Origin: a virus
Reading direction: 5' to 3' (one strand)
Virus record (IMG/VR): IMGVR_UViG_3300045049_000090
Location: 1-37,905 of that record
Length of the DNA stretch: 37,905 nucleotides
Both the position numbers and the translations under genes were made by a program. Below are positions 3,369 to 37,905 of the stretch, piece after piece (position 1 is the first letter of the stretch; each line of letters starts with the position of its first letter). Under the pieces are notes generated by a model that saw only the letters and a list, made by a program, of their open reading frames with translations, was not told the DNA's origin and did no database searches.

Positions 3369-3376
3369 ATGAAACT

Positions 3377-3405
3377 TTGACCTTGCCTATGCAGGATTGC
3401 ATAGT
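3377..3405 (+). promoter_or_regulatory. Promoter for cI (PRM-like), leaderless transcript
   Basis: -35 TTGACC (3377-3382), 17-bp spacer, -10 CATAGT (3400-3405). The predicted start, about 7 nt further, coincides with the A of the cI ATG at 3413, and no Shine-Dalgarno sequence precedes that ATG. Lambda PRM likewise makes a leaderless cI mRNA. Confidence 0.6.
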
Positions 3406-3412
3406 CACTGCT

Positions 3413-14428: not shown

Positions 14429-14638
14429 TTGGACTGCATGTTTCTCACCGACCAAGAGTTGACAGAACTCACCGGGAAGCGCCAGAACGCTGCACGCATC
14501 CGTGTCCTCAACAGCATGGGTGTGCAGCACAAGATCCGTCCGGACGGCTCGATTGCCGTCCTGCGAGCGCATGTCGAGCGAATCTTTGGCGAGAAGAAAG
14601 CGAATCCTAAAATGGAATGGCAGCCTGCCTGGAACTGA
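14429..14638 (+). CDS. DUF4224 protein, possible excisionase-like partner of the integrase
   Basis: 69 residues from a TTG, 4 nt after GGAGG; an ATG at 14438 is a possible alternative (66 residues). FLTDQELTELTGKRQNAARI followed by RVLNSMGVQHKIRPDGSIAV is the DUF4224 pattern, a small helix-turn-helix-like domain usually encoded directly before phage integrases. A recombination-directionality or DNA-binding role is plausible by position only. Confidence 0.75.
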   Translation: MDCMFLTDQELTELTGKRQNAARIRVLNSMGVQHKIRPDGSIAVLRAHVERIFGEKKANPKMEWQPAWN

Positions 14639-14640
14639 TC

Positions 14641-15699
14641 ATGCCGCGCCCCAGGAAGAAGGAAAACGTTGGCCTTCCGACGAGGTGGAAGCTTCATCAC
14701 GGGGCTTACTATTACCTCGTGCCACCGGGCCTTGAACCCATGTGGGACGGGAAGAAGAAGTTCCGCCTCGGCGCTTCTCTGCCCGAGGCTTACAAGGTAT
14801 GGGCTGATCGCGTTGGGCGTCTTGAAAACATCCGAACAGTGAGCCAATTGCTAGACCAGTACGCTCTTGAGGTCATTCCGACTAAAGCACCATCGACGCA
14901 AACGCAGAATATCTCCGCGCTGAAACCGCTTCGCGAACATCTCGGCACGGCGCCGCTTGCATCGCTGGTGCCGAAGATCATCTATGGCTACCTGCGTCAG
15001 CGCGGCGAAGCAAAAACCGGAGCGAAGCGGGAAGTGGAGGTGTTATCGCATGCCCTAACGAAAGCCGTCGAATGGGGATATATCGATCGGCATCCGTTCG
15101 CATGGCAACTCCGCATTGAGGGTGACAAGCCGCGCGATCGATACGTCGAGGATTGGGAGTTTGAGGAATGCCTGTCGATCAAGCCACGCCGACGCCGCGG
15201 CAGCGTATTAGCTGCACAGGCCTACCTTCGCATCAAGCTTCTTACCGGGATGGCTCGGGGCGACCTACTTCGCCTTCGTCCAGCCATCAACTTCAAGGAT
15301 GACGGCATCCACATCCAACGTCACAAGACGGCCAACACGACCGGCAAGCGGACGGTCTATCTATGGACTGATGAATTGCGAGCAGCCGTTAAAGATGCGC
15401 TCGACGCGCGGCCGGTCGATATCTCACCTTGGCTGTTCTGCACGCTCAAGGGGGAATGCTACCTCGACGAGTCGAACGGCCGAGCCGGCGGATGGGAATC
15501 GCTCTGGTCGAACTTCATGAATCGAGTCATGAAGGAGACGAAGGTGACGGAGCGGTTCACGGAGCACGATATCCGAGCCAAGGCGGCCAGCGATGCTGAG
15601 TCACTGGAGCATGCCCAAGCCCTTCTGTCGCACGCCGACAGCCGCACGACGAAGCGCATCTACCGCCGGAAACCGGAGCGCGTGAAGCCGGTCAGGTAG
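14641..15699 (+). CDS. int: Tyrosine integrase
   Basis: 352 residues from the ATG at 14641, 2 nt after the DUF4224 stop. The N-terminal arm-binding region begins PRPRKKENVGLPTRWKL; a core-binding SAM-like domain follows (about 55-155). The catalytic domain shows Arg in LTGMARGDLLRLR, HKTANTTGKR, HxxR in TEHDIRAKAA, LLSHAD and the nucleophile Tyr in TTKRIYRR. The gene reads directly into attP, which carries the 3' end of a tRNA-Ser gene. Confidence 0.93.
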   Translation: MPRPRKKENVGLPTRWKLHHGAYYYLVPPGLEPMWDGKKKFRLGASLPEAYKVWADRVGRLENIRTVSQLLDQYALEVIPTKAPSTQTQNISALKPLREHLGTAPLASLVPKIIYGYLRQRGEAKTGAKREVEVLSHALTKAVEWGYIDRHPFAWQLRIEGDKPRDRYVEDWEFEECLSIKPRRRRGSVLAAQAYLRIKLLTGMARGDLLRLRPAINFKDDGIHIQRHKTANTTGKRTVYLWTDELRAAVKDALDARPVDISPWLFCTLKGECYLDESNGRAGGWESLWSNFMNRVMKETKVTERFTEHDIRAKAASDAESLEHAQALLSHADSRTTKRIYRRKPERVKPVR

Positions 15700-17602: not shown

Positions 17603-19567
17603 TTAATTTCCATCCATCGTGTAGTTGATGCGCACCGTCACGGCGCCCGGGTTGGGACGTACCGAGAAGGCGAAAACCGCGTTCGAACAACCGGCGTTGT
17701 TGATGATGAATTGCGACGTCGGCAACGTCGAAGGGTCGCCGTTTGATATCGATCCGGCAAAAAATCCATGAGGGAATGCTGACGGATAAATAATCGATCC
17801 GTCTCCATTTGCGTTGAGCGTTACCGTCAGCTGACCGAACTTGTGGATGCTCCCATCCGGGAACACGAACTGGCCACCGCTCACGATCCATGACGGCTGT
17901 GCAATGATGTTATTTGAACCTTGGTCGCCGTAGTTCGACTGGCACTGGGTGAACACGTTGTCGCTCGTGACCAGTACGTTGCTCGAGTTCGGTTCGAGGA
18001 CGATCCCAGCGGTAAAGGCATTGATACGATTGCGTGAAATGATCGAACCTTCGGTGCCCGCTCCGCCGTTAATCTGGATACCGTACTTCGGAATGGTGCC
18101 GATCAAACCCATGAACGTATTGCCGTCGATCATGGCGTTCAAATCCACACCGGAAGTATTGACCTCGCCGGTGATCCCATAGTAGACCGTGCTCTGTCCG
18201 TCCGACGAGTTTGCATAGAATAGCGTGTTCGTGACGAAGAACTGTACGAAGTTCGTCGTAAGCACGCCGCCCCAATCCGTATTGAAGTGGCATGCATCAA
18301 CGGATAGTAAAGGCCGCGGGGCGCCACTAGCAATTGCCTGGATCCCTATACGGCATGCGATCGCGCCCGAATCAACCCAATAGACACCTTCCACCCATCC
18401 ACTGATCGAATATCCGATCTGACAGAAATAGACCTCGGTGTTCTTGAAGTAGATTTCGACTGGCGCGCCCCCGTTCACTTCGCCTTCGATGAAAAATCCG
18501 TTTGACGAGTGAATCGTCGCGTTTCCTCGATCGCCAAGCACGCGAACGTTGTCGATCGTGACGTTCCGCGCGTTGTAGAGATGTACGGCATTCTGGAATC
18601 CGTTGGTAGGTGCCGTTCCCAAAAACTCACAATCGCGGAGTGTGACAGTCTTACTCGTGCCGCCCTGCCCTTTGATCCACGACGCATACAAAAGGTCACC
18701 CGCCTTCATCGTGTTCGACCGGAATCCGATACGTTCGATCTCGAGCTGATAGACGTTGTATTCGCCGTTGGCGTCGTTACCGGTATAGCGGAAAGTGGAG
18801 GTGCCCCCCATCACAATGATCGAGCTCGACATTGTGTCGCCGAACAGATGTGTATCCCCGGTTCGCGTCAAATCAGCGGTCACAAGGCGTGTGCCTGCCG
18901 GGATATAGATCGAAGCAACCCCCGCATTGAGACATGCCTGGAGTGCCGCAGTATCATCCGTCGTCCCGTCTGCTTTCACACCGAACTGTCGGTCGCTAAC
19001 CGTCCCGTTATGTTGAAGTTTCCAGCGCGCGCCGTCATTTGCGACGATGATCGTGCCGCCGTTATCGGCGCTCGAGGTATCGTTGGGATCGTACTGGTAC
19101 GCGCCCCCGCCTCCATCATGCGGAGCGTAATAGCCGGTGACGAATGCTACTTGATAGAAAGAATGCGAAAGAGATCGGAGCGCACCAATTGAATTGACTA
19201 CTTTGTTGATGCCGGATAAAAGTGCATTAGCGAGTGTGGTGCCATCTGCAATGCCGATCATCGCCGCTCCACCTGGGCCCGCAAGATCGCTTGATGATGC
19301 AGATGAATCAACCAGTTGATCCCATATCAGGTTTCCTTGGCTATCGTATACGACTTGCCGATAGGAACCATTGCCATAGATGATCGCTTGCCCACGGCCA
19401 TCTAGAATTACAGGATTCGTGTTAAGTTCGCTCTGCGCGGCATCCTGCCATGTATCTTTCTTCGTGCTAGTGTTGGGGATGTAGAAGTAAACTTGACCTC
19501 CGACCAGCGGCTTACCGGTCGAGTCGATGAATTGCTGCTTGCCATTCGGCAGGAGAGATGCGGTCCT
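17603..19567 (-). CDS. Tailspike with P22-like head-binding domain (AGG start)
   Basis: 654 residues if read from the AGG at 19567, 5 nt after GAGG and directly after an in-frame TAA, so no ATG, GTG or TTG can start the head-binding domain. That domain spans residues 2 to about 105: FIDSTGKPLVGGQVYFYIPN, then DTWQDAAQSELNTNPVILDG, GRGQAIIYGNGSYRQVVYD and NLIWDQ, the typical tailspike cap that attaches to the P22-like tail machine. A pectate-lyase-like beta-helix follows (GVKADGTTDDTAALQACLNA). Conventional calling from the ATG at 19261 would lose 102 residues and the whole attachment domain. It likely binds or cleaves surface polysaccharide. Confidence 0.85.
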   Translation of the reverse strand, partial: RTASLLPNGKQQFIDSTGKPLVGGQVYFYIPNTSTKKDTWQDAAQSELNTNPVILDGRGQAIIYGNGSYRQVVYDSQGNLIWDQLVDSSASSSDLAGPGGAAMIGIADGTTLANALLSGINKVVNSIGALRSLSHSFYQVAFVTGYYAPHDGGGGAYQYDPNDTSSADNGGTIIVANDGARWKLQHNGTVSDRQFGVKADGTTDDTAALQACLNAGVASIYIPAGTRLVTADLTRTGDTHLFGDTMSSSIIVMGGTSTFRYTGNDANGEYNVYQLEIERIGFRSNTMKAGDLLYASWIKGQGGTSKTVTLRDCEFLGTAPTNGFQNAVHLYNARNVTIDNVRVLGDRGNATIHSSNGFFIEGEVNGGAPVEIYFKNTEVYFCQIGYSISGWVEGVYWVDSGAIACRIGIQAIASGAPRPLLSVDACHFNTDWGGVLTTNFVQFFVTNTLFYANSSDGQSTVYYGITGEVNTSGVDLNAMIDGNTFMGLIGTIPKYGIQINGGAGTEGSIISRNRINAFTAGIVLEPNSSNVLVTSDNVFTQCQSNYGDQGSNNIIAQPSWIVSGGQFVFPDGSIHKFGQLTVTLNANGDGSIIYPSAFPHGFFAGSISNGDPSTLPTSQFIINNAGCSNAVFAFSVRPNPGAVTVRINYTMDGN

Positions 19568-19652: not shown

Positions 19653-21905
19653 TCACGGGTTCGGCGAGAGGAGCGCAGGAAGGCTCCCGGCTACGACCCT
19701 AGGACCGAATTGCGCTACCGCATTGCCTATCGGGTTGGCAAATTGTGGGCGAGCTGTCAAAAGCGCTGCCACAGCGCGCTGACCCGCTGTCGTATACGGT
19801 AACGATCCCAGACCAATTCCTCCCAAAGTTGCAAGCGTCGGGCCCGGCGCAGTTGTAAGACCTGCGGCAATCCCGCCCGGCGCGAGCAAAGCCATGAGCC
19901 CACGACCAGCCGTTCCAGAGTCTGGATATTTCGATCCCAAAACACGCTGACCCGCGCCAGAAAGATCTTGCATGAGCGCGGTTCCTGTCGCCGTAGCCCC
20001 TTTTCCTGCGGATCGATCAGAAGCCTTAACTGCATTCTGAAGTTGTGCCGCAGTAAATATGCCTTCGTTGTTCATTGCCCCTTGCGATGCTGCCGCCGCT
20101 CTAACACGTGCAAATCGGGCGTAAGCGGCATTCGCATTTGCCAACCCTTCAACAGCATCGGCCGGATTGGTTCTAGCCAACGAACCTTCAATAGCAGAAC
20201 GAATTTCACCGATAGCAGCGCCAAGTTGACGATTATCAAAAGACGCATCTCCCGCGTATCCGCGCGCTAAATCCCCCAGTTCCTCTTGTACCCCTTTAAG
20301 GGTTTGACCGTCCATATTTCCTTGAGGACCCACCTTTCCAAATACCTGAGTACGTAAAGTATTCATAAAAGTTTGTCGCTGAGCATTCGGCAACTGTTGT
20401 GCCATGCCAGTCAAGCGCATGATGTCAGCCTGGAATCCCGGGTCCGTAGCCTGAAAAGACATGCGCCCCAAAGAATCGTCATAAGCTTGACGAATCGCAT
20501 TTCTGACTGCCCCAATCGCCTGCTGACCAGCGGGACCTTCATAGGTTGCCCCAATTGGGGCCAGCACTTCGTTATATGCTGCTCTATTGAAGTCTTGGAT
20601 TGCCCGTTGCTGAGAATTTTTAATGAGATCGCCGAGTACCGGAACACTTGATAATTTTGCTTCGGTACGAGCGAATCCGCCGCCCAAGATCTGTCCAGGA
20701 GTAGGCGTTACACCAGCATCCATCAGGCGCTGAACATCCGCAGATACTTGCGGAGCAATACCGCGACCAACAGCCATGAGAGCAGGAGACAAGATGCCTC
20801 CGGTAGCTGCGCCGAGCCCTAGTTGTTTCAGCTTCTCAGACCAGAAATCAGTAGGCTGCTGCCCCGTCACCAAGGATGTCAGGTTGGGAGTCTGATCATT
20901 CTCCACGGGGGCAAGAGCCCCGCTAGCAGCCCCCATTCCAGCGCCAATTCCTGCCGCGCCAAGATAGGTGCGCGCCACAGGGGCAACAGCAGCCAAAGGA
21001 GCGGTGGCAACGAGAGCCCCTCCAATATTGCCGGCACTAGCGGCCACCGGATGTGCTTGGGAATACGGCACGTATTGCTGGTTGAGTTGCGAGATCCCGC
21101 GATTGGCATCATTGACGAGCCAATTACCGGCGCGACCGATCATCCCCATCAGATCACTGCCGCCTTGGGTCATCCCTTGAGAATTTGAACCAAGGGACTG
21201 CAACCCATGACCGAGTAACTGTTGGGCACCGAGAACCGTCGAGCCGAATCCTTTACCAAGTCCTGCACCAATCGATTCAAGAACGCCAGGCGACGCAGTC
21301 GTTTGAGGTGCAAGCTGTTGTTTTGCGGTCGTGGTCGGCTGGGGAGATGTCTTCGAAAACGCGGCGAAGATCTGATCATCCGTTGGACCATTTTGAGCTT
21401 GCTGCGCATTTGCTACCGGTGCACCACCACTGAATGCCGAGAAAATCGCATCGTCACTCATTCCGTCAGATTGCTGGCCCACCGGAATTCCGGGCAGAGT
21501 CTGAGACTTCGCTTGCGGCATGTTGATTCGTCCTAGAACCTGTTGCGCATAAAGGCTATTACCAGTCTGAGCAGCTTGCGATCCAGCACCGTCCTTGTAC
21601 GCAGCCAGCGCCTTACGAGGATCATTGAACCGATCAAGCTGCTGCCCGAGATACCAAGATCCAACATCCGCGCCGACTTCCGGCTTCAGAAGGTCTTGCA
21701 TCGTGTACTTCGTGCCATTGGCTGAGTTGTAGTCGGACAACGCGGGTGCACGCACTTGCATCAGGCCGGCAGCCCCTTGTCCACCTCCAGTCTTGTTCCA
21801 CGCAGAAGGGTTTCCACTCGATTCTTGCTGGATGACCGCCCTTACCAAAGCAGGATCAAGATTGTGCTTCTGAGCCGAAGCCTGAATGATCGGCGTCAAA
21901 TCCCT
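19653..21905 (-). CDS. Ejection protein with lytic transglycosylase domain, gp16-like (AGG start)
   Basis: 750 residues from the AGG at 21905. The upstream gene's TAA is the in-frame codon just before it, and GGAGG lies 7 nt upstream; only AGG, GAT or a TTG could begin the protein. Residues 1-145 form an SLT-type lytic transglycosylase: TPIIQASAQKHNLDPALVRA, QQESSGNPSAW with the catalytic Glu, GAAGLMQVR, then AAYKDGAG. The rest is helical and Gly/Ala-rich, including glycine-zipper-like segments. It should be ejected with the DNA to bore through peptidoglycan, like P22 gp16. 85 nt separate it from the tailspike. Confidence 0.85.
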   Translation of the reverse strand, partial: RDLTPIIQASAQKHNLDPALVRAVIQQESSGNPSAWNKTGGGQGAAGLMQVRAPALSDYNSANGTKYTMQDLLKPEVGADVGSWYLGQQLDRFNDPRKALAAYKDGAGSQAAQTGNSLYAQQVLGRINMPQAKSQTLPGIPVGQQSDGMSDDAIFSAFSGGAPVANAQQAQNGPTDDQIFAAFSKTSPQPTTTAKQQLAPQTTASPGVLESIGAGLGKGFGSTVLGAQQLLGHGLQSLGSNSQGMTQGGSDLMGMIGRAGNWLVNDANRGISQLNQQYVPYSQAHPVAASAGNIGGALVATAPLAAVAPVARTYLGAAGIGAGMGAASGALAPVENDQTPNLTSLVTGQQPTDFWSEKLKQLGLGAATGGILSPALMAVGRGIAPQVSADVQRLMDAGVTPTPGQILGGGFARTEAKLSSVPVLGDLIKNSQQRAIQDFNRAAYNEVLAPIGATYEGPAGQQAIGAVRNAIRQAYDDSLGRMSFQATDPGFQADIMRLTGMAQQLPNAQRQTFMNTLRTQVFGKVGPQGNMDGQTLKGVQEELGDLARGYAGDASFDNRQLGAAIGEIRSAIEGSLARTNPADAVEGLANANAAYARFARVRAAAASQGAMNNEGIFTAAQLQNAVKASDRSAGKGATATGTALMQDLSGAGQRVLGSKYPDSGTAGRGLMALLAPGGIAAGLTTAPGPTLATLGGIGLGSLPYTTAGQRAVAALLTARPQFANPIGNAVAQFGPRVVAGSLPALLSPNP

Positions 21906-23408
21906 TTACTGGCCTCCCGGCATTTGGATGAGACCAGCACGAACCAGATTCCCGAGATCAGCCTTGAACTTTGTCAGTTGCTGAGGCGATTGACGCTTCA
22001 AAAAAGCTTGCTGCTGAGTTGGGCTCATTGATGTGAACACGAACGCGTCAGGATTGACCGCCTTGTTCCACTGAGACTGCCACTGGTTGAACTTGTCAGT
22101 CGTAAGGCCCGAATTCTGGAATGCATAATCCTGCGCGGCGCGCATCTTCTCTGCGGCCATCGTCTTGGCGAGAATGTCCTCGTTAGCAAGCTTCGAAATA
22201 TTCGGGTTTGCGTTTCCCGTCACCGCAGCGTTCAGTCGGGCATCTGTCCCCGTTCCAAGCGAACCAGAAACCGAAGAAGCATAGTTCGTCAAGATCTTTT
22301 TGAACTCATCGTAGTTTTGAACATCTCCGCTCCAACCAACCTTCTTGGCGACATCCGGAGCTAGCGCATTGAAGAACGATTTGGCCTGATTGCGCCAATC
22401 GGTTCCCGGGCCTGTCTGGATACCAGAAAGCGCGTCGCGAGCGTTCTCAAGAAGGTTGATCCGCATCGGAGCGTCCGCCGCAGCATCGTGAAGCGTCTGA
22501 GCTGCCGTATTGGAAGTAGCCCCCTGAGATGCAAGCGCAGCCTGCTGAGCAGGACCAAGGGATGTTTGCAAGCCTGGTACACTGCCCGTTTGGCCGCTTT
22601 GATCATAACGCCCCGTATAACCATTACCAGCTGGAGCATTTGGAACTCCACCACCGCCCTGCATCGCCAGCTGCTCCGCTTTCGTGATAATGCGTTGCTC
22701 GCCATTCGGTCCGACGATCGTGACGTTTTGTGCGAGTTCGCCAGGCGACAGACCTTTTTGCACCGTCGTACCCACCGTTGATTCGCCGGTGAGAGGATTG
22801 CGGTTCAAAAGAACGGTTCCGCTTCCGGTGTCAACAGCCACATTTTGCGGCATCAATGCTTGAATCTTCGCCTCTCCGGAAAGCGAATTCATGAGATGGT
22901 TGCGAATCCATCCAGCCTGTGAAGCAGGATCGGAGGGGATCGACTGGATCTCGCGCAACGCTGTATCCATGGGAAGCGTTCCAGCCTTGGTCGCTTCTAC
23001 GATCTGTTGAACAATCGGCGTCGACATATCCATCTTGCCCATATTCGGATCAAGAGCTAATGATCCGATCCGATTCCTGAGATCCTGTTGCTGCTTCAGA
23101 GCAAGCTCAAGCTTGCCTGTATCGTATTGAAGCTGGGAGTTGCGCTGTTGCGCGATCTGGCCCATGAACTCAGGCAAGAACGCACCTGCTCCGTTCTGAG
23201 CAGCCAGAGATTGCAGCTTATTGAAGTCCACCGATCCATCTGGATTCAGAGACTGAGAATACGCATCCGAAATGGCTTGGTTTGCCCCAAGGCGCATCGA
23301 ATTTTGTCGGAGCGCAAGCAATCCAGCAGCCGTTTGCACAGGCTGCTGGAGAGCTGCCATCGGATTGACTGGCTGAATCTGAAGAGGGATGGACGGATCA
23401 ATCGGCCT
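21906..23408 (-). CDS. Ejection protein, gp20-like position (AGG start)
   Basis: 500 residues from the AGG at 23408, with GGGAG 7 nt upstream; the in-frame TAA of the preceding gene is only one codon away (TAA GAA AGG). The expected N-terminus (M)PIDPSIPLQIQPVNP is recovered this way; the first ATG is codon 17. Ala/Gln-rich, long helical segments, no transmembrane span. Position between gp7- and gp16-like genes fits a P22 gp20-type internal ejection protein. Same frame as both neighbours. Confidence 0.75.
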   Translation of the reverse strand, partial: RPIDPSIPLQIQPVNPMAALQQPVQTAAGLLALRQNSMRLGANQAISDAYSQSLNPDGSVDFNKLQSLAAQNGAGAFLPEFMGQIAQQRNSQLQYDTGKLELALKQQQDLRNRIGSLALDPNMGKMDMSTPIVQQIVEATKAGTLPMDTALREIQSIPSDPASQAGWIRNHLMNSLSGEAKIQALMPQNVAVDTGSGTVLLNRNPLTGESTVGTTVQKGLSPGELAQNVTIVGPNGEQRIITKAEQLAMQGGGGVPNAPAGNGYTGRYDQSGQTGSVPGLQTSLGPAQQAALASQGATSNTAAQTLHDAAADAPMRINLLENARDALSGIQTGPGTDWRNQAKSFFNALAPDVAKKVGWSGDVQNYDEFKKILTNYASSVSGSLGTGTDARLNAAVTGNANPNISKLANEDILAKTMAAEKMRAAQDYAFQNSGLTTDKFNQWQSQWNKAVNPDAFVFTSMSPTQQQAFLKRQSPQQLTKFKADLGNLVRAGLIQMPGGQ

Positions 23409-23411
23409 TTC

Positions 23412-24248
23412 TTAGCTCCCGTATCCAAATGCACTAAGGCCCGCAGGAGCTTGGAACCCATAGTTGGCGCCAAGTCCGCTCGAGAACATCGGAGAATAGA
23501 ATGCCCCTCCCGAGGTAGCGCTAGGGTTCATCATCGAATACAACATGCCTGCGCCACCTAGTGACGACAGCCCACCGCTCAGGGCATTCGCGCCACCAAT
23601 CGCGCCAGCAGCCTGAGCATTCGCTCCCGAAGTCAAGAAATTGCCCGCGTTGTTGGCTGTTTGCATCCCTGCATTACCAACACCAGCTGCGGCATTCTGA
23701 CCAAGACCAATCAGGCTAGCCAATCGGTTATATTGATCCGCCTGCACGCCGTAGTTCGTACCGAACTGTTGCAACGCGTTGCCAAAGTTCGTTTGATACT
23801 GAGATAGTGCATTTTGGAACTGTTGGTTATACGTCTGATCGGCAAGACCGGTCGTGTAGTTCGCAAGTCCCTTCGCCTGAGCACCGGACAAATTAAGTCC
23901 CTTCGAAGCCATCTGATTATTCAGATTCTTGAGTCCTTGCTGGAGCGTGAACTGATACCCAGGCGTTTGCTCAAGCTGCTGCTGCGTGGGATTGAAGTTG
24001 AACGGCGAATATGAAAATTTCGGCGTGAGTGAACCGCCTCCGAGCATCGACTGAAGCTGACTGATGGACCCCGTACCGAGATCCATATACGGCTTCAAAT
24101 TCTGCTGCATCTGCTGGAATTGCTTCCATTGCATATCCGCAGCATTGTTTGCGGCCTGAGCTTGGGTGTCGGCAGCATCCGATGCTGCTCCTGATTGCAG
24201 GGCAGCCCCCGCCAGTCCCGCCCCTGCTACTGCAGCAGCTATGCACCT
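23412..24248 (-). CDS. Ejection protein, gp7-like position (AGG start)
   Basis: 278 residues from the AGG at 24248, with a perfect GGAGG 6 nt upstream. The resulting start (M)CIAAAVAGAGLAGAALQSGA is like the Cys-rich, Ala/Gly-rich N-termini of small podovirus ejection proteins; the first ATG is codon 39. Rich in Gln, Asn and Gly with repeats such as NALSQYQTNFGNALQQFGTN. Overlaps the acetyltransferase-like gene by 10 nt. Likely internal virion protein forming part of the trans-envelope channel. Confidence 0.75.
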   Translation of the reverse strand, partial: RCIAAAVAGAGLAGAALQSGAASDAADTQAQAANNAADMQWKQFQQMQQNLKPYMDLGTGSISQLQSMLGGGSLTPKFSYSPFNFNPTQQQLEQTPGYQFTLQQGLKNLNNQMASKGLNLSGAQAKGLANYTTGLADQTYNQQFQNALSQYQTNFGNALQQFGTNYGVQADQYNRLASLIGLGQNAAAGVGNAGMQTANNAGNFLTSGANAQAAGAIGGANALSGGLSSLGGAGMLYSMMNPSATSGGAFYSPMFSSGLGANYGFQAPAGLSAFGYGS

Positions 24249-24742
24249 GTTCCACCTCCAGGAAGATCTTTGAGTTTGAGCTCCATCACTACATCGTCAG
24301 CAATGTACCCACGACGTTGAAGTATCTCGTACAGCTTTCCGGTCATTGTGACGGGCCACCCAATGATGCTGACGCCGCGAACGCGCAGTGTTTCCTCGAT
24401 AGCCGACATGAAGCGAGGCATTGAGCAACGATGCCCTGGTTGCACATAGAACGTATCTACGTTAGCGCACAATTCGGTTTTCAGATGCAAGCTTTTGTAC
24501 AGAATGACCAATGCGTAACCATGAAGAATGCCATCTTCATCACGCAACGTCATTGCGATCAATGACTGATGGTCGGCCAGATAAAGATACTGATCGATAT
24601 CCGGATCGATCTGAAGGCCGCGCTGGCCATGATAGGCGCACGTATCCTTCTTGATCTCCGAACATTCGTCCCAGCTCTGCTGCCCCAGCGGAACAATCTC
24701 TTCCGCAAGTTCGGGCGTAAATTTCTCGATGGCAATCTTCAT
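24239..24742 (-). CDS. GNAT-like acetyltransferase in the virion operon
   Basis: 167 residues, ATG at 24742. Pattern of a GNAT fold: early IEKFTPELAEEIVPLGQQSW, the central beta strands YLYLADHQSLIAMTLRDEDG, DTFYVQPGHRCSMPRFM as a likely acetyl-CoA loop region, and YEILQRRGYIADDVVMEL at the C-terminus. The pyrophosphate-binding Q/RxxGxG/A motif is degenerate, so activity is uncertain. Located where P22 keeps gp14; a head-associated role is possible. Confidence 0.65.
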   Translation of the reverse strand: MKIAIEKFTPELAEEIVPLGQQSWDECSEIKKDTCAYHGQRGLQIDPDIDQYLYLADHQSLIAMTLRDEDGILHGYALVILYKSLHLKTELCANVDTFYVQPGHRCSMPRFMSAIEETLRVRGVSIIGWPVTMTGKLYEILQRRGYIADDVVMELKLKDLPGGGTGA

Positions 24743-24744
24743 GA

Positions 24745-25437
24745 TCAGCCCAAATACTCCAACCGGATATGGACGGCATACTTCATCGCGCCAGCCGTGC
24801 CAGAAGCATACCCAGCAGTTTGATACGTGATGTTCGTGCTGGCCTTCGCATAAAGGATCTGTTGACCATATCCGAATGCGCCGATAGCGTTAGCAGTGTT
24901 CGTTTGCGTAACGGCCGTCGCAGACAGAACCGTGCTGCTATCGTTGTCCGTCCACCCGATACCGACGCTCGGGAGCGTAGAAGAAGCTGCATCCGCAGTC
25001 GTCTCGACAGCATATGCCGATACCCGATACATTCCCGATTTACCGGCAGGAACCGCATACAACGTGGCCGCCGTTACATTGGCACCTTGGTTGACAAGAT
25101 TCTGTTGGGCGATTTCGACCGCAACACCATTGGCAACGAGCGGGATGCCAGCATATTGGCTCAATGGGTTTGTGATTTTGGCAACAGTCGGGTTAGGAAG
25201 GTTGCCCGACAGATCGCCGCCAACCGTCCCGATGTTCGTTGCGGCACTTCCCGATGCCATTTTGGCAGCAGTGATCGCACCATTTGCCACAGTAGGATTG
25301 GGGTATGTACCGGTCAAATCCCCGCCTGCCGCACCGCCAGGACCCTCACTCGCGGCAAATTGCGCTACTTCATTGATTGAAACGGTGCTGTCACCACCAC
25401 CGTTGGACACATAAAGACGCTCTTGACCAGTAAGCCT
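24745..25437 (-). CDS. Head- or tail-fibre-like virion protein (AGG start)
   Basis: 230 residues from the AGG at 25437, with GGAG 6 nt upstream; the first standard start is a GTG at codon 10 without spacing. N-terminus (M)LTGQERLYVSNGGGDSTVS. Two copies of GGDL(T/S)G(T/N)(Y/L)PNPTV, a motif typical of phage fibre shafts, followed by a C-terminal jelly-roll-like domain (SGMYRVSAYAVETTADAASS). Probably a trimeric fibre or decoration protein. Confidence 0.7.
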   Translation of the reverse strand, partial: RLTGQERLYVSNGGGDSTVSINEVAQFAASEGPGGAAGGDLTGTYPNPTVANGAITAAKMASGSAATNIGTVGGDLSGNLPNPTVAKITNPLSQYAGIPLVANGVAVEIAQQNLVNQGANVTAATLYAVPAGKSGMYRVSAYAVETTADAASSTLPSVGIGWTDNDSSTVLSATAVTQTNTANAIGAFGYGQQILYAKASTNITYQTAGYASGTAGAMKYAVHIRLEYLG

Positions 25438-25451
25438 GACCTTCTCCTGAA

Positions 25452-25793
25452 TTAGCTGCCGCTAGTTTCATAGACGCCACCCATCATCGTGATGACGGCT
25501 GCCGTTCCTGCAAGAGCCTGCAAAGTCGAACCGGGCGCAAGCTGGAGCCCAATCGCCGCAGGTGGGACATATGTTTGCCCCCCCGAAAGCGTAAAGCCAG
25601 AAAGAAAGGTGTTCGCCGCGCCTGCCGTTCCACCGTTTGGAACGTTGTACAACGTCACCGAAACAGGGTTAGCAGATGTATTGGTGATCGACAAATTGTT
25701 AATCGTGCCAGTCGTCCCAGAAGGGGCCGTGTAATAGGTCGCTGCCGATGCAGTCAACTGAGCGGGTGCAATGGACTTCGGAAGTCGTTGCCT
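25452..25793 (-). CDS. Small virion-type beta protein (AGG start)
   Basis: 113 residues from the AGG at 25793. GAGG lies 6 nt upstream, and an in-frame TGA stands two codons before AGG, leaving no ATG or GTG. A TTG at codon 13 would cut the start of the domain (LPKSIAPAQLTASAATYYTA). Beta-rich, with TNTSANPVSVTLYNVPNGG; resembles small phage decoration or fibre-associated proteins. Located between the needle-position and fibre-like genes. Confidence 0.65.
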   Translation of the reverse strand, partial: RQRLPKSIAPAQLTASAATYYTAPSGTTGTINNLSITNTSANPVSVTLYNVPNGGTAGAANTFLSGFTLSGGQTYVPPAAIGLQLAPGSTLQALAGTAAVITMMGGVYETSGS

Positions 25794-25796
25794 AGT

Positions 25797-26435
25797 TCAC
25801 CTCGGAATTCTAGTCATTGTGGGGGCTGCTGAATATGTCACTGTCAACGAATCACCCACGCTCATTTCAACAAGTTGACCGCCAGATACTACGGACAACG
25901 CAAGTGTACTTGATCCACGACCATATGAGAGAGAACTAACCGTTCCTCCGGTCATATGAACTGCTTGTCGAGAGGTCGCCACATAGGAAAACGGAGACGC
26001 CCCAACCGTAATCGAGGAAGTAGCCTGGGCCGAAGAAGAATCAACCATTGGGGCATGCACCAATGCTTCGAGAACAGGGGCGGCAAAACTTCCGGCGGCA
26101 TATATCGATTCAGATGCCAAGACGCCAGAATCTAAACCGACACACGGAAAAGACTCTGGCATTGCTGGTGCTATCGAAATAGAGGCTGCAATGGCCCTCA
26201 CCTGAGCAATTGCATCTGCCACACGCGTAGTCTCCTGCGAGGCCAAATCCATCTGAGGAATGAAGTCCTCAAGCCCCAGTACGTCCGCGATCGTAAGCTG
26301 GCCATCCCCACCACTGTCACCACCAGTTCGCCTAAACAGTTGGATGAAGAACAAAAACCATGCTTCTGTCCACTTCCCAGTACGAGGATCAATAGGTGCG
26401 ACATCAATGAGCGGAATGTTGGCGACCAAGTTCAT
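25797..26435 (-). CDS. Virion protein in the tail-needle position
   Basis: 212 residues from the ATG at 26435, which overlaps the gp10-like stop as ATGA and follows GGAGG. N-terminus NIPLIDVAPIDPRTGKWTEA is a pattern of phage tail-associated proteins; a helical middle follows (FIPQMDLASQETTRVADAIA), and the C-terminus is beta-rich, ending in SLTVTYSAAPTMTRIPR. It sits where P22 encodes the needle gp26, but the sequence match is not convincing. Confidence 0.6.
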   Translation of the reverse strand: MNLVANIPLIDVAPIDPRTGKWTEAWFLFFIQLFRRTGGDSGGDGQLTIADVLGLEDFIPQMDLASQETTRVADAIAQVRAIAASISIAPAMPESFPCVGLDSGVLASESIYAAGSFAAPVLEALVHAPMVDSSSAQATSSITVGASPFSYVATSRQAVHMTGGTVSSLSYGRGSSTLALSVVSGGQLVEMSVGDSLTVTYSAAPTMTRIPR

Positions 26436-27850
26436 TGATTGTTGGCCTCCGCCTGAATCCATGCGCCGAGAAGTGCCGTTTTGACAGGCGATGACCACGA
26501 CAACTCGAATACTCGGTCGCGAGCCATCCCAAGACGCTGGAACTGAATCGATGTGAGGTACTCACCCTCTTTGCCAAGACTGCTTTGGATTGCATTACCC
26601 CATGACCGGCCGCGGGTATCGCTCCATCGAAGAAATACAGGCACCTCAGCATTGTCGGAACCGTTCCCAACTTCCATATTGGCGATGAATTCCCGATACC
26701 GGATCCGGCTGGAATTGTCGTCTACGCTATGCGGAAAAGAACGGATGCGAGTAATCGGCTCTCCGTTGTCCGTATAGGAGTTTGCATCCCAGTGGTACAG
26801 ATTGCCGTTCTGCCAGTCTCCTACCACTTTGGTACCGTACGCAGACGCGTAACAGTTTGCCCTATGCCGATGAAGTTGGCCGTTCGTGTCAAGCCATAAA
26901 AGTTCGTTCCACTGCCCCGTACTGAGATCGAATTGCCATGTCTTATCTGACTGCGGGAAGGTCAGGACATAGAAGAAATGACCATCAAGCTGATATGTGA
27001 ACCCAATCGCTTGGTTCAGATCAGGATAGCCGTTCATCTCGTTGTCGAGCGCAAACGTGGAGATTTGAGCTGCGTTGAACTGTTCCGTCTTGCAGATCAC
27101 CGCAATCCCCTGGGGAGATTGCGACAACCAATACAGCTCACCATCCATCTGCGCAATTGAGGCCGCCGACATGCACCCATGCTGAATGAACGTGCCAGGC
27201 AACCTCGAGAACGGGAACGGCGTATCTCCTGCATCAAACCATACTTCGGTTGTGCTTTCGCCAAACAAGTACACGTATCGCTTGGCAACGCCAAGCCCGA
27301 CTAGCTTGTCTGAAAACCCAGCCTTCGACGCGAAGTCAGTTGCATCGAAGTTGACCTCATCGACCAGCGAGATATACCACTCACGCGTGTTAGGAATGTT
27401 CAGGACCAGATAGCCATCCACAAAGCCAACCGTCGTGCCGCCAGCGAAATCGCCGCCGTTGACAGTCGCCAATGCGTCATTTGCGAGGTTAATCGTGTAC
27501 CCAGTCGTCGTCCCGTCTACCATGAAAACATAGTTCCCGTTGTCTACCATGCTCACATAGCCGGAACTGGTCTGCAGGTTCCCGAGCTTCGTCATCGACC
27601 AATCTGACAAGATACGATAAGCAAAGGACCCGCATACCCCATACAGAACATTGTTCGATGCGAAATAGAGCTGCCGCCAGCCTTGACCGCTAGGAGCAGT
27701 TCCTAAAAGTTTCAAGCCAAGAGAGGGGTAGTACGTGAATGGAAACGTCGCGTCCTGCGGATTCTTCTCCGCATACAGATTGACGCAGCGCTGAGCCTCT
27801 GCAACAAGGCTCTTCGCCATATACGCGCCGGTCGTAAGGGCCAATTTCAT
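26432..27850 (-). CDS. Packaged DNA stabilisation protein, P22 gp10-like
   Basis: 472 residues, ATG with GGAG 6 nt upstream, overlapping the gp4-like stop as ATGA. It has the beta-propeller-like pattern of the phage stabilisation family: AEAQRCVNLYAEKNPQDA at the N-terminus, NVLYGVCGSFAYRI, GYLVLNIPNTREWYISLVD, YVYLFGESTTEVWFDAGDTP and PFSRLPGTFIQHGCMSAASI. It forms part of the tail hub closing the portal after packaging. Confidence 0.9.
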   Translation of the reverse strand: MKLALTTGAYMAKSLVAEAQRCVNLYAEKNPQDATFPFTYYPSLGLKLLGTAPSGQGWRQLYFASNNVLYGVCGSFAYRILSDWSMTKLGNLQTSSGYVSMVDNGNYVFMVDGTTTGYTINLANDALATVNGGDFAGGTTVGFVDGYLVLNIPNTREWYISLVDEVNFDATDFASKAGFSDKLVGLGVAKRYVYLFGESTTEVWFDAGDTPFPFSRLPGTFIQHGCMSAASIAQMDGELYWLSQSPQGIAVICKTEQFNAAQISTFALDNEMNGYPDLNQAIGFTYQLDGHFFYVLTFPQSDKTWQFDLSTGQWNELLWLDTNGQLHRHRANCYASAYGTKVVGDWQNGNLYHWDANSYTDNGEPITRIRSFPHSVDDNSSRIRYREFIANMEVGNGSDNAEVPVFLRWSDTRGRSWGNAIQSSLGKEGEYLTSIQFQRLGMARDRVFELSWSSPVKTALLGAWIQAEANNQ

Positions 27851-28593
27851 CCGGCGCTCCCAATATAGAAATCGCCGAAGATGTTGTAGGTCCCTTTGTT
27901 GTTACCGCGCAGCGCAGGCGGCATCTGAAGGCGCGGAATCTGAGCGTTTGCCTCTTCGATGATGCGCATCGAGGCTTCGGCCTTCTTCTCCGTAACCGGA
28001 TTCACCGGAAGGCCGTAGAACGGGTACAGTTCCAACACAAGATTCCACATCATCGCCGCACTGTATTCAGGCGGAAGAATGATCTGATCGTTGATATCTT
28101 GGAACTGCTGAAGCTGCTGCATCACCGTGATGTCGATCTCGTACTGATTGTTCGGGATCGGCCAGATGAACAGATTGGCGAGCGGGAAGCCACCGTCGTA
28201 GAACGCGAACTGCGGAAACGCGTTCAGGTCCTTGATCGAGATTCGGTTGTAATCCTCGCGAGCTCTAAGAATATCGAGCGGATAGCTCACCGGAAGCGGC
28301 GTTGCAACGTTCTGCCGGAAATACGCCGATTCCAGCTTAGCCGGACGTGGCATATCGAAATCGCCGCCAGGCCCGACGGTGTAGGAAATCGCGCCCGTCG
28401 CCTGCTTGGACGCAGTGATGAGCTGATAGACCATATACCGACGACGCTGCCACTGAGCCAGCATCATATTCAGGAGGTTAAACGAATCGTTCATATCCTC
28501 CGCGCTGGCGGTCTGCCCCACCCCCAAAACGTTCGCCGTCTTGAGCGCAAGCGAGATGATGTCAGACGGAGTGGTTGGAAGCGGGACGCTCCT
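27847..28593 (-). CDS. Tail accessory factor, P22 gp4-like (AGG start)
   Basis: 248 residues from the AGG at 28593, with AAGGAG 5 nt upstream. The A of AGG is the last base of the previous gene's TAA. The start (M)SVPLPTTPSDIISLALKTAN supplies the first helix expected in this family; a TTG at 28527 (codon 23) would lose it. Later marks: LNMMLAQWQRRRYMVYQL and the long C-terminal helical part. Gp4 rings join the portal to gp10. An in-frame stop three codons upstream of AGG rules out a distant start. Confidence 0.85.
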   Translation of the reverse strand, partial: RSVPLPTTPSDIISLALKTANVLGVGQTASAEDMNDSFNLLNMMLAQWQRRRYMVYQLITASKQATGAISYTVGPGGDFDMPRPAKLESAYFRQNVATPLPVSYPLDILRAREDYNRISIKDLNAFPQFAFYDGGFPLANLFIWPIPNNQYEIDITVMQQLQQFQDINDQIILPPEYSAAMMWNLVLELYPFYGLPVNPVTEKKAEASMRIIEEANAQIPRLQMPPALRGNNKGTYNIFGDFYIGSAG

Positions 28594-28830: not shown

Positions 28831-30033
28831 TTACAGCTGGTCGGCCACAATTACCGCCCATTCCGGACGGATCGCAGCGAAACCATACAGCACGTCAAGA
28901 CGCGTGATCAGGTTGTCCGACATGACGTCGTAGGCCGTGATCATCCGCATCGAGACGCCGTCGAACTGAGCGCGGGCCGATTCGACCACGCCGCTCGTCG
29001 GCATTTCGAGGTCAGCCGTTGCCAGGGTGAAGGCTTCCGGGAAGTACGCAAGGTTCTTGCGGTACTTCAGGCTAGCACCACCAAGCAGCGTGATTGCCGC
29101 GCCGTTGGCCGGCGATGCCGTGACAGTGTTGAATGCCGCCGGAGCCGGGACGATCGCCGGATAGATCGGGATCGAAGTAGCACCCGAAGCCACATCCGCC
29201 GTCACGACGAATTGACGGAGAGCAGCCTGGTCATCACCCGTGAGACGGTTGATCGCGTTCACCCCAGCAATGGTGATGATGTCGCCAGCCTTCAGCGTGC
29301 CAGTGATCGCGCTGACAGTCAGCGTGTTGCCCGTTTGGCCTGCGCCGTTGACCGTGCCAGCAGTGAACGTACCCGACGTGTGAACCTTGGTCGTCTGGTC
29401 CATCATCCAGTCGAAACCGAGGGTGTCACGCGTGATAAGGCCAGTCTCGAACTGATCCGAGATCTTGACCTGCGGGTTGAACAGGCCTTGCAGCGACGAA
29501 ACCGTATTCGCCTGCGTGATCGGATCGAGGATGATCTTGCGATCAAGACGCGGCGAAAGGTTCTGGTCAAGCGCTGCACCAGCCTGGAGCCAAGTCTTGG
29601 CGCTCGGGCTGATCAGATTGCCGCTACCGTCCGTGTTCATGACGATGTTGCAAGCCGAGTTTGCAACGTTCATCAGGTCACCAGCCATCACTGCGGCCAG
29701 TCGGTTGACTGCAGGCGCAAGGATGCGCTCGCTGTAGTCATCCAACGACATGGTACGCTCGGCCGCGCCGAACGATACAGGAACGTTCTTTTGCTTCGCA
29801 ACCGTGAGCGACGTGTTCTGTTCGTTGGTCCCCTGCGGAGTGATCGCGGGGCCATCGTTCACGACATAGTCGTTCGGGAGGCGGATACGCAGCGTGTTGC
29901 CGATCTTGGCGCCGCTGCGAGCGAACTGGTCGTCGTATTGACGATTGACAGTGCGAAGGAAGGCGTTCGTCTGCGAGAACAGACGAACGGCTTCATTCGT
30001 GATCATGTCGATTGTGAGAAGGCTGTTTGCCCT
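28831..30033 (-). CDS. Major coat protein, P22 gp5-like (AGG start)
   Basis: 400 residues from the AGG at 30033, which follows GGAG by 7 nt. This gives (M)ANSLLTIDMITNEAVRLF, the expected beginning of P22-type coats; the ATG at 30006 (codon 10) has no Shine-Dalgarno sequence. Further marks: NRQYDDQFARSGAKIGNTLR, IRLPNDYVV and an inserted I-like domain around residues 220-300 (GQTGNTLTVSAITGTLKAGD). It has its own promoter and terminator, fitting very high expression. Confidence 0.92.
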   Translation of the reverse strand, partial: RANSLLTIDMITNEAVRLFSQTNAFLRTVNRQYDDQFARSGAKIGNTLRIRLPNDYVVNDGPAITPQGTNEQNTSLTVAKQKNVPVSFGAAERTMSLDDYSERILAPAVNRLAAVMAGDLMNVANSACNIVMNTDGSGNLISPSAKTWLQAGAALDQNLSPRLDRKIILDPITQANTVSSLQGLFNPQVKISDQFETGLITRDTLGFDWMMDQTTKVHTSGTFTAGTVNGAGQTGNTLTVSAITGTLKAGDIITIAGVNAINRLTGDDQAALRQFVVTADVASGATSIPIYPAIVPAPAAFNTVTASPANGAAITLLGGASLKYRKNLAYFPEAFTLATADLEMPTSGVVESARAQFDGVSMRMITAYDVMSDNLITRLDVLYGFAAIRPEWAVIVADQL

Positions 30034-30176: not shown

Positions 30177-30204
30177 AGTATAACGAATCAATTCAAAATG
30201 TCAA
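30177..30204 (-). promoter_or_regulatory. Strong internal sigma-70 promoter for the coat gene
   Basis: -35 TTGACA (30204-30199) and -10 TATACT (30182-30177) with a 16-bp spacer. The scaffold stop TGA lies within the -35 box. Expected start near 30170. Confidence 0.75.
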
Positions 30205-30914
30205 CGTTTCTTACGTGCATTTTGATTGCGCCATACAAACCATTCAGGAGTACCTACGGCCGGTTCAGCACCATCAGAACGTGACGAACCATCGACAGGT
30301 TGAATCGGGGGCGGAGCTTTCGAGATCTGCTTCGAGAGCGCCTTGATTGCAGAACCGGATGCCTTTGCAAGCTCGATACCCATTTGAAGAGGGTCGAGCG
30401 ATGCAATGCGAATGGCTTCTCCCACGTTTTCATTCTTCCCCAACCATGTGAGAACCTTTTCCGGATTGGGAACGGCTGCAATAGCCCGCAAAAAATCCTG
30501 ACCGCCGACTCCGGCCATTTGAAGGTTGGTAACTGCCGTGTCGTAGTCCGCACCGAACTCTTTCTTGCCGTTTGCCTCGATCTGCGACAGCGTGCGCACC
30601 AATTCCTGCTGGCCCATGCGCTCCGTTGCGATTCGTTCTGCCGCCGTCTCGACAAGACGCTGAAGATCTTGAGGATTAGCGGGAGTGTTGGTGGAGGGAT
30701 CGGCCGTTGCTCCTGCGCGCAGTCGATTCAATTCGGCTTCGAGCGATGCGGCGCGTTCTTCTGCGGCCCGGCGAGCCGCCGTGATCTCACTGATACGCTT
30801 AGGAACCCATGAAGTATCGTGTTGCTTGACTTCTGGCTCTTGCGCAACCTCCGATGCACCTTCGGTGGTTTGCGGCTGAAGTTCGGTGGTTTGGTCTGAT
30901 TGAACGTCGCTCAT
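30201..30914 (-). CDS. Scaffold-like protein
   Basis: 237 residues from an ATG with GGAG 6 nt upstream. Acidic, Gln/Glu-rich N-terminus, a coiled coil (ITAARRAAEERAASLEAELN), a helical middle with LVRTLSQIEANGKKEFGADY, and a basic C-terminus ending NQNARKKR. Position between portal and coat and the helical, basic-tailed layout match P22-type scaffolds, whose C-terminal basic helices bind coat. Confidence 0.75.
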   Translation of the reverse strand: MSDVQSDQTTELQPQTTEGASEVAQEPEVKQHDTSWVPKRISEITAARRAAEERAASLEAELNRLRAGATADPSTNTPANPQDLQRLVETAAERIATERMGQQELVRTLSQIEANGKKEFGADYDTAVTNLQMAGVGGQDFLRAIAAVPNPEKVLTWLGKNENVGEAIRIASLDPLQMGIELAKASGSAIKALSKQISKAPPPIQPVDGSSRSDGAEPAVGTPEWFVWRNQNARKKR

Positions 30915-33117: not shown

Positions 33118-33337
33118 GAGTGCAATTCTCCATAAGGCGCTGTTTGAGCAGTTCAATCATTCCTACCGCTTCAATACAATTCGGCAGCCAAGACCATTCG
33201 TTCATCACTATGCCGTCTTTTCGGAGGATAGATACTGCGATGCACGTAATCTCGCCCTCCATCGCCATTTGCTCGATATTCTGAGCTAACGTAAGAACAC
33301 TTTCATGCGAACTCGCATTAATCGGCATCAGTTTCAT
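33110..33337 (-). CDS. 75-residue hypothetical protein between terminase and portal
   Basis: ATG at 33337 overlapping the terminase stop as ATGA. SWLPNCIEAVGMIELLKQRL near the C-terminus resembles small conserved proteins found next to phage terminases. Otherwise featureless; function unknown. Confidence 0.6.
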   Translation of the reverse strand: MKLMPINASSHESVLTLAQNIEQMAMEGEITCIAVSILRKDGIVMNEWSWLPNCIEAVGMIELLKQRLMENCTQG

Positions 33338-34728
33338 GATCCCATCCAGCTACCCGGAGTATATCCGCTAATTACATGCTGCGGACGCGGCGTCGTTTGG
33401 TATTCCTTCTTTTTGGCTCGATCACGGACGATGCCGGGGAAAATCTCAGTGAGCGCCCAAATCAGCGCGTCAGCGCGGTTGGGGGAGCCTTCGCCGAGAT
33501 AGCCGACTGTCGAGAACGACGTAAGCTCATCCTCGAGCTCTCGATACTGACCCACATGCCTCACTTTCCCTTGCTCGTAGAGCGACGAGAACGGCTCAGC
33601 CCGCACAGCCTTACCGCGGGAAGCCGTGACCATCTTGAACGGCGTCCGAGCGCGAGCCGTCTGGATCACATGCTGAACCATTGCGCCACCGAAGTTCCCT
33701 TCACCCACCACTAGGTCAGCCGCATGCCGGTCGTATGCCGAGGCCGCAACCGACCCCCAAGTAGCAGGACCGGCCTTCACCGTACAGTCTTCCAGTAGAT
33801 AAGCCACGCCATTCGTGCCAAGCCCAACCACCGCAATGCCAATTTCATCATTGTCCGCATTGTCCACATCGCCAGAGCCAGAGGGATCAACAGCCACAAC
33901 AACACGCACCATGTCAGGAAGAGGCTCATCATCGTGATGGCGCCAGCGTTCGATCGTCTCTTCGGCAAAGAGTTGGTTTGGCGTCGCATCGCTGAATTCT
34001 CCCTTGAGAAAGCGCTTCTGGAGGCGCGCAGACATGCCCTCCAGCGTCTTCAGGTAGCTTTCGCTCAGGTTCTGAGCGTTGTCGTGCGGGTTGATCTGGA
34101 AGCTGTCGTAATCGGCAGGATTCGACAGGGGCTCGCCCGTTTCGGGGTCGACCTTCTGCACAAAGCGCTTGTATGTCCAGTGAGCCTTGCTTGGCGGATT
34201 GCAGTCGTAGTACGCCCGCATTTTCAGCGGCTCAGGCTTTCTTCCCTCGATGTGCGTGTAGACGAGCTGCGCCAGACGCGTAATAGCTATGTCGACAGAT
34301 CCCATGGGAATCTGGCTGCATTCGTTGAAGTAGAGGGTCGCGAACTCCTTCCCGAGCACCTTCTCCACGCGCTCTTTGTCGTCCAAGCCAGAAAACCAGA
34401 TCTCGCTATCGATTGCGTTGCCGTTCTCGTCTCGTACTCCCGTATGAATCACCGCATACCCATCGCCTTTGTGCATTGTGTAGCGGATGTTGGGGAAGGC
34501 GATGCGCATCACCTTGGGGAAGGTGTCCAGCACGATCGATTCGTGCACATGAAGCGCGCGGAAGCGAAAGATGCCATGGCGGCTTCCAGGAGCCTTGATG
34601 GCCCGCATCACGATGTTGCGGACATGCAGAAAGGTCTTGCCACTCCGCGAACCGCCGAACAGCATCAGATGCGTCGCCAATCCAGCGAGCATCACTTGCG
34701 CTTGTTCTTGACGGGGAGTTAGCTGCCT
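33334..34728 (-). CDS. Terminase large subunit (AGG start)
   Basis: 464 residues from the AGG at 34728, whose A is the last base of the previous TAA; GGAG lies about 10 nt upstream. Gives (M)QLTPRQEQAQVMLAGLATHL, the normal terminase start. Walker A is GGSRSGKT; a Walker-B-like strand is ATLYFNEC. The nuclease domain has VVAVDPSGSGD and a late NRADALIWALTE. The ATPase-nuclease motor packages DNA, probably by headful as in P22. No ATG occurs before codon 13. Confidence 0.92.
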   Translation of the reverse strand, partial: RQLTPRQEQAQVMLAGLATHLMLFGGSRSGKTFLHVRNIVMRAIKAPGSRHGIFRFRALHVHESIVLDTFPKVMRIAFPNIRYTMHKGDGYAVIHTGVRDENGNAIDSEIWFSGLDDKERVEKVLGKEFATLYFNECSQIPMGSVDIAITRLAQLVYTHIEGRKPEPLKMRAYYDCNPPSKAHWTYKRFVQKVDPETGEPLSNPADYDSFQINPHDNAQNLSESYLKTLEGMSARLQKRFLKGEFSDATPNQLFAEETIERWRHHDDEPLPDMVRVVVAVDPSGSGDVDNADNDEIGIAVVGLGTNGVAYLLEDCTVKAGPATWGSVAASAYDRHAADLVVGEGNFGGAMVQHVIQTARARTPFKMVTASRGKAVRAEPFSSLYEQGKVRHVGQYRELEDELTSFSTVGYLGEGSPNRADALIWALTEIFPGIVRDRAKKKEYQTTPRPQHVISGYTPGSWMGS

Positions 34729-35720: not shown

Positions 35721-35795
35721 TGGTTGCGGGAGGAGGAATCGAACCCTCCAACTTCGGCTTAGGGGGCCGGCGTTATACCGTTTAACTATCCCGCG
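35721..35795 (-). tRNA. Initiator-like tRNA with CCU anticodon (reads AGG)
   Basis: 75 nt including encoded CCA. Acceptor 5' CGCGGGA pairs with TCCCGCA except for C1-A72, the mismatch that marks bacterial initiator tRNA; CGCGGG and CCCGCAACCA equal the E. coli fMet tRNA ends. D-stem GTTA/TAAC; loop AACGGTA. Anticodon stem has G29-C41, G30-C40, C31-G39 and a C27-A43 mismatch; loop CCCCTAA gives anticodon CCU, with C33 instead of U33. Variable loop 5 nt; T-loop TTCGATT, T-stem with one A-C and one G-T pair. Starts 8 nt after the HNH gene. All ten AGG-start genes lie downstream in the same operon. Likely an altered initiator; a decayed tRNA-Arg is the alternative. Confidence 0.82.
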
Positions 35796-37697: not shown

Positions 37698-37905
37698 TTA
37701 TGCCGATACCTCTATAAGACGACGAAGAACATCGCAGGGATTGAAATGCTTCCATGCTTGATCTTTGGCGTAGGCGGCGTCGGCGTAGGCGGCGTAGGCG
37801 GCGTAGGCGGCGGCGTCGGCGGCGGCGTCGGCGGCGTAGGCGGCGGCGGCGGCGGCGTAGGCGGCGGCGTCGGCGGCGTAGGCGGCGGCGTCGGCGGCGG
37901 CGGCG
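37698..37905 (-). CDS. Ala/Tyr/Asp-repeat phage protein, C-terminal part (continued from base 1)
   Basis: This is the distal part of the gene that starts at 542. After the Ala/Tyr/Asp codon tract (down to 37767) comes a short unique C-terminus, KDQAWKHFNPCDVLRRLIEV followed by SA and a TAA at 37698-37700. The frame agrees with the first part modulo 3 across the join of the window ends. The N4 gp49-family gene begins 45 nt downstream. Function unknown; the C-terminal amphipathic stretch resembles the tail of other repeat proteins of this kind. Confidence 0.75.
   Translation of the reverse strand, partial: AAAADAAAYAADAAAYAAAAAAYAADAAADAAAYAAYAAYADAAYAKDQAWKHFNPCDVLRRLIEVSA
37767..37905. repeat. 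GGC/GTA/GTC trinucleotide-register repeat, right part
   Basis: Right half of the tract that continues at base 1. Unit changes occur only in whole triplets, so length variation would change residue number without breaking the frame. Confidence 0.9.

Follow-up and report, generated by a model that had tools for sequence, protein, structure and literature searches.

Bacterial translation is regarded as having a fixed start signal, with one initiator anticodon and ATG-like start codons. Engineered initiator tRNAs of E. coli with a changed anticodon (U35A36 for UAG, G34C36 for GUC) nevertheless start in vivo at the matching codon when that codon is changed in the gene (PMC2268962), in agreement with an earlier, sequence-only reading of the DNA studied here. 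In stop-codon recoding phages, suppressor tRNAs give stop codons a new meaning (code 15 and similar), with a late-gene bias in some phages and a likely role in timing (PMC10879173, PMC9523058). Many viral contigs also encode a canonical initiator tRNA(CAU). In some uncultivated Bacilli, AGG was reportedly reassigned to Met (eLife 2021 study).

Here we describe a phage locus that, with high confidence, encodes a second initiator tRNA, which would start late genes at AGG. Like the engineered E. coli initiators, it combines a changed anticodon with a matching codon changed in the genes; those are laboratory constructs, whereas the phage tRNA and the AGG starts are natural and occur in two lineages and many genes. 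As in stop-codon recoding, a phage tRNA re-means a codon. However, recoding alters elongation at stops inside genes, while the AGG system would alter initiation only and leave the sense codon normal internally. The CCU tRNA has the same acceptor signature as the canonical phage initiators, which carry the anticodon CAU and, unlike the CCU phages, show no excess of AGG starts. As in the Bacilli, a CCU-anticodon tRNA gives AGG a new meaning, but theirs is a whole-genome reassignment in elongation, whereas here internal AGG remains Arg. We found no report of AGG-start phages or of a natural precedent in the open-licence literature searched. The contigs with AGG starts were all assembled from metagenomes.

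The window, which is the whole stretch of DNA analysed, is a viral record of 37.9 kb. Most of its early genes are on the plus strand, and the minus strand carries the late genes, which run in descending order from ~36.5 to 16.5 kb:

3347-3958: repressor-like gene
14617..15699, plus strand: integrase (phrog_1)
17603..19567, minus strand: tail fibre protein (phrog_17640 and others), AGG start
19653..21905, minus strand: transglycosylase-domain virion protein (phrog_12507), AGG start
21906..23408, minus strand: late protein, AGG start
23412..24248, minus strand: DNA ejection protein (phrog_598), AGG start
24239..24742, minus strand: late protein, an exception with an ATG start and no overlap
24745..25437, minus strand: late protein, function unassigned, AGG start
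25452..25793, minus strand: late protein, function unassigned, AGG start
25797..26435, minus strand: late protein, an exception with ATG within an ATGA overlap
26432..27850, minus strand: head closure protein (phrog_578), an exception with ATG within an ATGA overlap
27847..28593, minus strand: head-tail adaptor-like protein (phrog_12985/637), AGG start with AAGGAG upstream
28831..30033, minus strand: major capsid protein (phrog_283), AGG start
30201..30914, minus strand: scaffold protein (phrog_8865), an exception with ATG here and AGG in the related locus L004
30931..33117, minus strand: portal protein (phrog_156), AGG start
33334..34728, minus strand: terminase large subunit, terL (phrog_979), AGG start with a TAAGG overlap with the upstream stop
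35721..35795, minus strand: tRNA gene, anticodon CCU, C1xA72, initiator-type acceptor stem

The integrase marks the window phage, by gene content, as temperate. A DNA search of the late region against named phages found no close relative, and the proteins scanned included no tRNA synthetase, formyltransferase or initiation factor. The early genes include a pentapeptide-repeat protein (5333-6007). Both ends of the window (1-150 and 37755-37905) consist of a low-complexity GC-rich repeat, with strings of CGC codons when read on the minus strand, which is perhaps an assembly edge.

ARAGORN calls a tRNA(CCT) at 35721-35795 on the minus strand and labels it tRNA-Arg. Covariance scoring matched it to the tRNA family (Rfam RF00005, 52.7 bits, E 1e-8). 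Its sequence is CGCGGGA-TA-GTTA-AACGGTA-TAAC-G-CCGGC-CCCCTAA-GCCGA-AGTTG-GAGGG-TTCGATT-CCTCC-TCCCGCA-ACCA. In the acceptor stem, C1 G2 C3 G4 G5 G6 A7 stands against U66 C67 C68 C69 G70 C71 A72, followed by A73-CCA. C1xA72, G2-C71, C3-G70 and A73 are all in the state of bacterial fMet tRNA, position 1 is unpaired in the predicted fold, and the C1xA72 mismatch is common to the window tRNA and the CCU tRNAs of all close relatives. Two features of an elongator tRNA-Arg(CCU) are absent: the paired 1-72, where the window tRNA has its mismatch, and A20, which the D loop (AACGGUA) lacks. The C1-A72 mismatch, the fMet-type acceptor and the anticodon CCU matching AGG had all been noticed in the sequence-only reading, and all three were borne out. 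The combination of C1xA72, G2-C71 and C3-G70 is linked to formylation, and C1xA72 together with the 3GC features turns elongators into initiators (PMC7949028).

Beyond the acceptor, the picture is mixed. The anticodon stem has the three consecutive G-C pairs that had been claimed for it (29-41, 30-40 and 31-39), of which G29-C41 and G30-C40 are canonical, but the third is C31-G39, where G31-C39 would be canonical. There is a C.A at 27-43, a C in place of U at position 33, and a U-A at 11-24, where initiators have A11-U24. The canonical bacterial anticodon CAU is replaced by CCU, which makes this tRNA a variant and no canonical member of the initiators. The window tRNA thus has an initiator-like acceptor, and the rest of it is initiator-like only in part; the hallmarks are present but, with A11-U24, G31-C39 and U33 missing, incomplete. 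A promoter scan around the tRNA found none.

We read every late gene of the window from stop to stop for its start codon. Ten start with AGG (at 34728, 33117, 30033, 28593, 25793, 25437, 24248, 23408, 21905 and 19567), and all ten lie downstream of the tRNA, which is located just ahead of the late operon, confirming the arrangement and the number given in the sequence-only reading. Most of the ten are preceded by a Shine-Dalgarno-like motif at normal spacing. A strict count of Shine-Dalgarno-positioned AGG in the window, with genes called by a simple caller, gave 4 against 0.8 expected, which is weak taken alone. Because AGG resembles part of the Shine-Dalgarno sequence, the start calls rested on comparison with relatives instead. 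These were gathered via TerL (63 loci) and the 23408 gene (50 loci), and together with the window form lineage 1.

In these alignments, the AGG codons fall at the standard start columns of the relatives. The TerL column holds ATG in 19 relatives and GTG in 13, and the portal column ATG in 21; AGG is found at both in L003 and L004. The capsid column reads ATG, GTG or TTG in 26, 6 and 4 relatives, respectively. ATG occupies the column in 30 relatives for the adaptor (AGG in L106 and L004), 22 for the 25793 gene (AGG in L106), 34 for the 23408 gene and 30 for the fibre. Three genes make a thinner case: the 25437 gene, with AGG in L004 and L106 and ATG in L006, its only other relative; the 24248 gene, with ATG at the column in nine relatives and many others starting elsewhere; and the 21905 gene, with ATG at the column in only three relatives and AGG in L106 and L107. 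Several AGG-start genes contain not a single ATG, GTG or TTG from the upstream stop to the conserved residues. The closest TerL relatives, L003 and L004 (96% identity), both combine AGG starts with a CCU tRNA. No CCU tRNA was found in the other lineage-1 relatives scanned, many of which are short fragments. The TerL start is variable in lineage 1 (L012, L020, L021, L034 and others), being ATG, GTG or a few codons further upstream.

The switch to AGG is not complete. The claim that late virion genes start with AGG holds for the ten genes above, but the scaffold, head closure (27850), 26435, 24742 and endolysin genes keep ATG. These exceptions partly make sense: the 27850 and 26435 starts lie within ATGA overlaps, where a T-to-G change would destroy the upstream TGA stop. 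The scaffold start swaps within the clade, with ATG in the window and L003 and AGG in L004.

Inside genes, AGG keeps its ordinary meaning. Internal AGG codons align with conserved Arg in the relatives (for example 61/62, 49/49, 47/47, 59/62 and 45/47), while start AGG codons align with their Met. AGG is therefore not recoded to Met, which rules out a global AGG=Met recoding, and only its meaning at the start is new. By these alignments AGG has a double meaning like that of AUG, in that it serves as the start in first position and encodes an amino acid (Arg) further into the gene. Internal AGG is also rare in the late genes of the window (9/5439 codons), which argues against an elongator role of the tRNA.

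A pattern scan of viral contigs for initiator-like CCU tRNAs (CGCGGG...CCTAA...CCCGCAACCA) matched, besides the relatives of the window, two low-GC contigs, G001 and G002. In both, AGG is the start of the late genes, although there had been no prior reason to expect this, and ATG that of most early genes. This second lineage has 30% GC, an SPP1-type portal and an SU10-type capsid, and G002 carries an integrase along with this portal and capsid. Considering that the portal and capsid families of G002 are unlike those of the window, the two systems very likely arose separately. Shine-Dalgarno-positioned AGG numbered 15 in G001 and 16 in G002, where 1.2 and 1.3 would be expected; in contigs that lack such a tRNA the number was 0-1, except in G009, with 3 against 1.8 expected. 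AGG starts were found in 12/17 late versus 4/29 early genes of G001 and in 12/13 late versus 3/32 early genes of G002, so a few early genes also appear to start with AGG.

All 11 lineage-2 capsid loci have an AGG start (one codon off in the alignment of L226), whereas the capsids of more distant relatives, used as the outgroup, start with ATG, GTG or TTG. In the capsid tree the AGG loci form one well-supported group; a long-branch ATG fragment, L231, is weakly placed inside it, which counts against the second-initiator reading. The AGG start is inherited together with the tRNA: at least 5 kb upstream being available, a CCU tRNA with a 1x72 mismatch was present at 7/7 AGG loci and 0/26 non-AGG relatives, a contrast that overstates independence because the lineage-2 loci are related to each other, which leaves the existence of a second lineage as the stronger argument. 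Among the seven, L222 and L223 are near-identical, and the tRNA of L230 was found by the pattern after ARAGORN missed it.

The lineage-2 CCU tRNAs are diverged in sequence, yet all that were read have a 1x72 mismatch (C-A, C-U or A-A), A73 and G30-C40. G30-C40 is constant while the 29-41 and 31-39 pairs vary, and the initiator D-arm pair A11-U24 is present in G002, L222/L223, L224 and L227. As in the window, the tRNA gene precedes the late genes. The CCU tRNA of G001 (L116, 231-304) has lost the usual TTCRA T-loop, and ARAGORN misses the gene. In G002 (L206, 13338-15740), an RNA-ligase-like protein adjoins an AAA protein resembling a kinase, and the two may serve tRNA repair.

A broader tRNA scan returned mostly CAU initiators and no third lineage, and a third scan with other acceptor spellings found known members only. 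The viral contigs whose initiator tRNAs have the ordinary CAU anticodon, in several cases with C1xA72, served as negative controls and had 0-2 Shine-Dalgarno-positioned AGG each. Initiator-like tRNAs with C1xA72 and odd anticodons were seen in L121 (CAG), L123 (ACT), L125 and L143 (CTG) and L153 (GAC). In three contigs with such tRNAs, G005 (CAG), G006 (ACU) and G009 (GAC), no non-standard start stood out at Shine-Dalgarno-positioned codons, and no AGG excess was found. An fMet-like CCU tRNA in an alphaproteobacterial MAG (L202; G010 contig C30:32140-32216) was rejected, as it has a chromosomal context and ATG-start genes; it is probably an assembly error or a curiosity. Two further genome matches, L200 and L201, are not tRNAs according to ARAGORN.

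These results suggest how the system could work. Host enzymes would charge the tRNA, and the unpaired 1x72, G2-C71/C3-G70 and G30-C40 should allow it to be accepted by the host formyltransferase, which should tolerate the 1x72 mismatch, as well as by IF2 and the ribosomal P site. Its CCU anticodon would form Watson-Crick pairs with AGG, and ribosomes placed by the Shine-Dalgarno sequence would start there. IF3 admits no pairing other than Watson-Crick at the first two codon positions (PMC10158994), so AGG should be readable by CCU but not by CAU. Most virion genes have switched their start from ATG to AGG, and the early genes, mostly ATG, would use host fMet-tRNA. Because of the position of the tRNA upstream of the late genes, their translation would follow its synthesis. 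Late proteins would then have to await the tRNA, and the virion genes would be translationally silent in the prophage and in early infection. This role as a late switch is suggested by gene order and by the mostly-ATG early genes.

The residue carried by the tRNA bears on the N-termini of the late proteins. C35, U36 and A73 fit ArgRS and favour charging with Arg, so formyl-Arg is somewhat likelier than fMet. Bacterial ArgRS, however, relies chiefly on A20 (PMC9976931), which the CCU tRNAs lack wherever the D loop is readable, and this makes Met or another residue possible.

Several other readings of the tRNA and the AGG codons were weighed. Many phages encode elongator tRNAs for rare codons, and the ARAGORN label, the U11-A24 pair and parts of the anticodon stem would all suit an ordinary tRNA-Arg(CCU) that decodes AGG inside late genes. 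Such a tRNA should not have a 1x72 mismatch in every CCU tRNA of AGG phages read, would have just 9 internal AGG per 5439 late codons to serve in the window, and leaves the AGG at start columns and its co-occurrence with the tRNA unexplained, so we consider this very improbable. Still less probable is that host fMet-tRNA (CAU) reads the AGG starts by virtue of a strong Shine-Dalgarno sequence, with the phage tRNA incidental. Weak initiation at non-standard codons is known, and Shine-Dalgarno motifs precede most of the AGG starts. However, a U-to-G change at the second base is not near-cognate, at a position where IF3 wants Watson-Crick pairing (PMC10158994), and AGG starts are confined to loci with a CCU initiator-like tRNA. 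The least credible reading is that the true starts are other nearby codons and the AGGs are Shine-Dalgarno parts or assembly errors: although AGG belongs to the Shine-Dalgarno core and the contigs are all metagenomic, several genes offer no standard start before their conserved residues, AGG stands exactly under the ATG of relatives in many genes, and the pattern repeats in independent contigs of two lineages.

A more serious contender accepts the second initiator but not the late switch. The system could be a neutral ratchet, in which the tRNA came first and ATG then drifted to AGG, or a means of keeping satellites and other phages from stealing genes. The ATG/AGG swap of the scaffold within a clade and the few early AGG genes in G001 and G002 are consistent with this, as is the resistance of ATGA overlaps to change, which a ratchet predicts. 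On the other hand, AGG starts are strongly biased to late genes, in both lineages these genes are preceded by the tRNA, and the integrase in the window and G002 fits silencing in lysogens. We regard the absence of a switch as a real possibility, if one clearly short of an even chance. The pairing of an altered initiator with altered start codons, as proposed in the sequence-only reading, is strongly supported by the start alignments, the co-occurrence, the second lineage and the Arg meaning of internal AGG. A fuller proposition is put forward tentatively, at nearly an even chance: that a non-CAU initiator with an AGG start arose at least twice in temperate phages, that their late proteins begin with formyl-arginine, and that the late genes of the prophage are untranslatable until the tRNA is made.

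If the second initiator is real, the start signal can be duplicated and split among gene classes, and an entire operon can be gated by a single small RNA. Unusual protein N-termini would be predicted, a natural orthogonal start system would be on offer, and the conservation of start codons elsewhere would become a testable question. AGG starts would also account for late genes of this kind being truncated or overlooked by gene callers.

A different tRNA occupies the same place in another member of lineage 1, L039 (TerL 68%). Upstream of terL, at 751-825, this locus has a CUA-anticodon tRNA that is Gln-like, with G73 and U1xC72. Its terL (1155 onward) is interrupted at codon 9 by a lone in-frame TAG (MKFTTRQL*AQ), a position at which relatives encode E or Q. 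In L039, TerL synthesis may be under the control of a phage amber suppressor, which would make this the stop-codon equivalent of the AGG gate.
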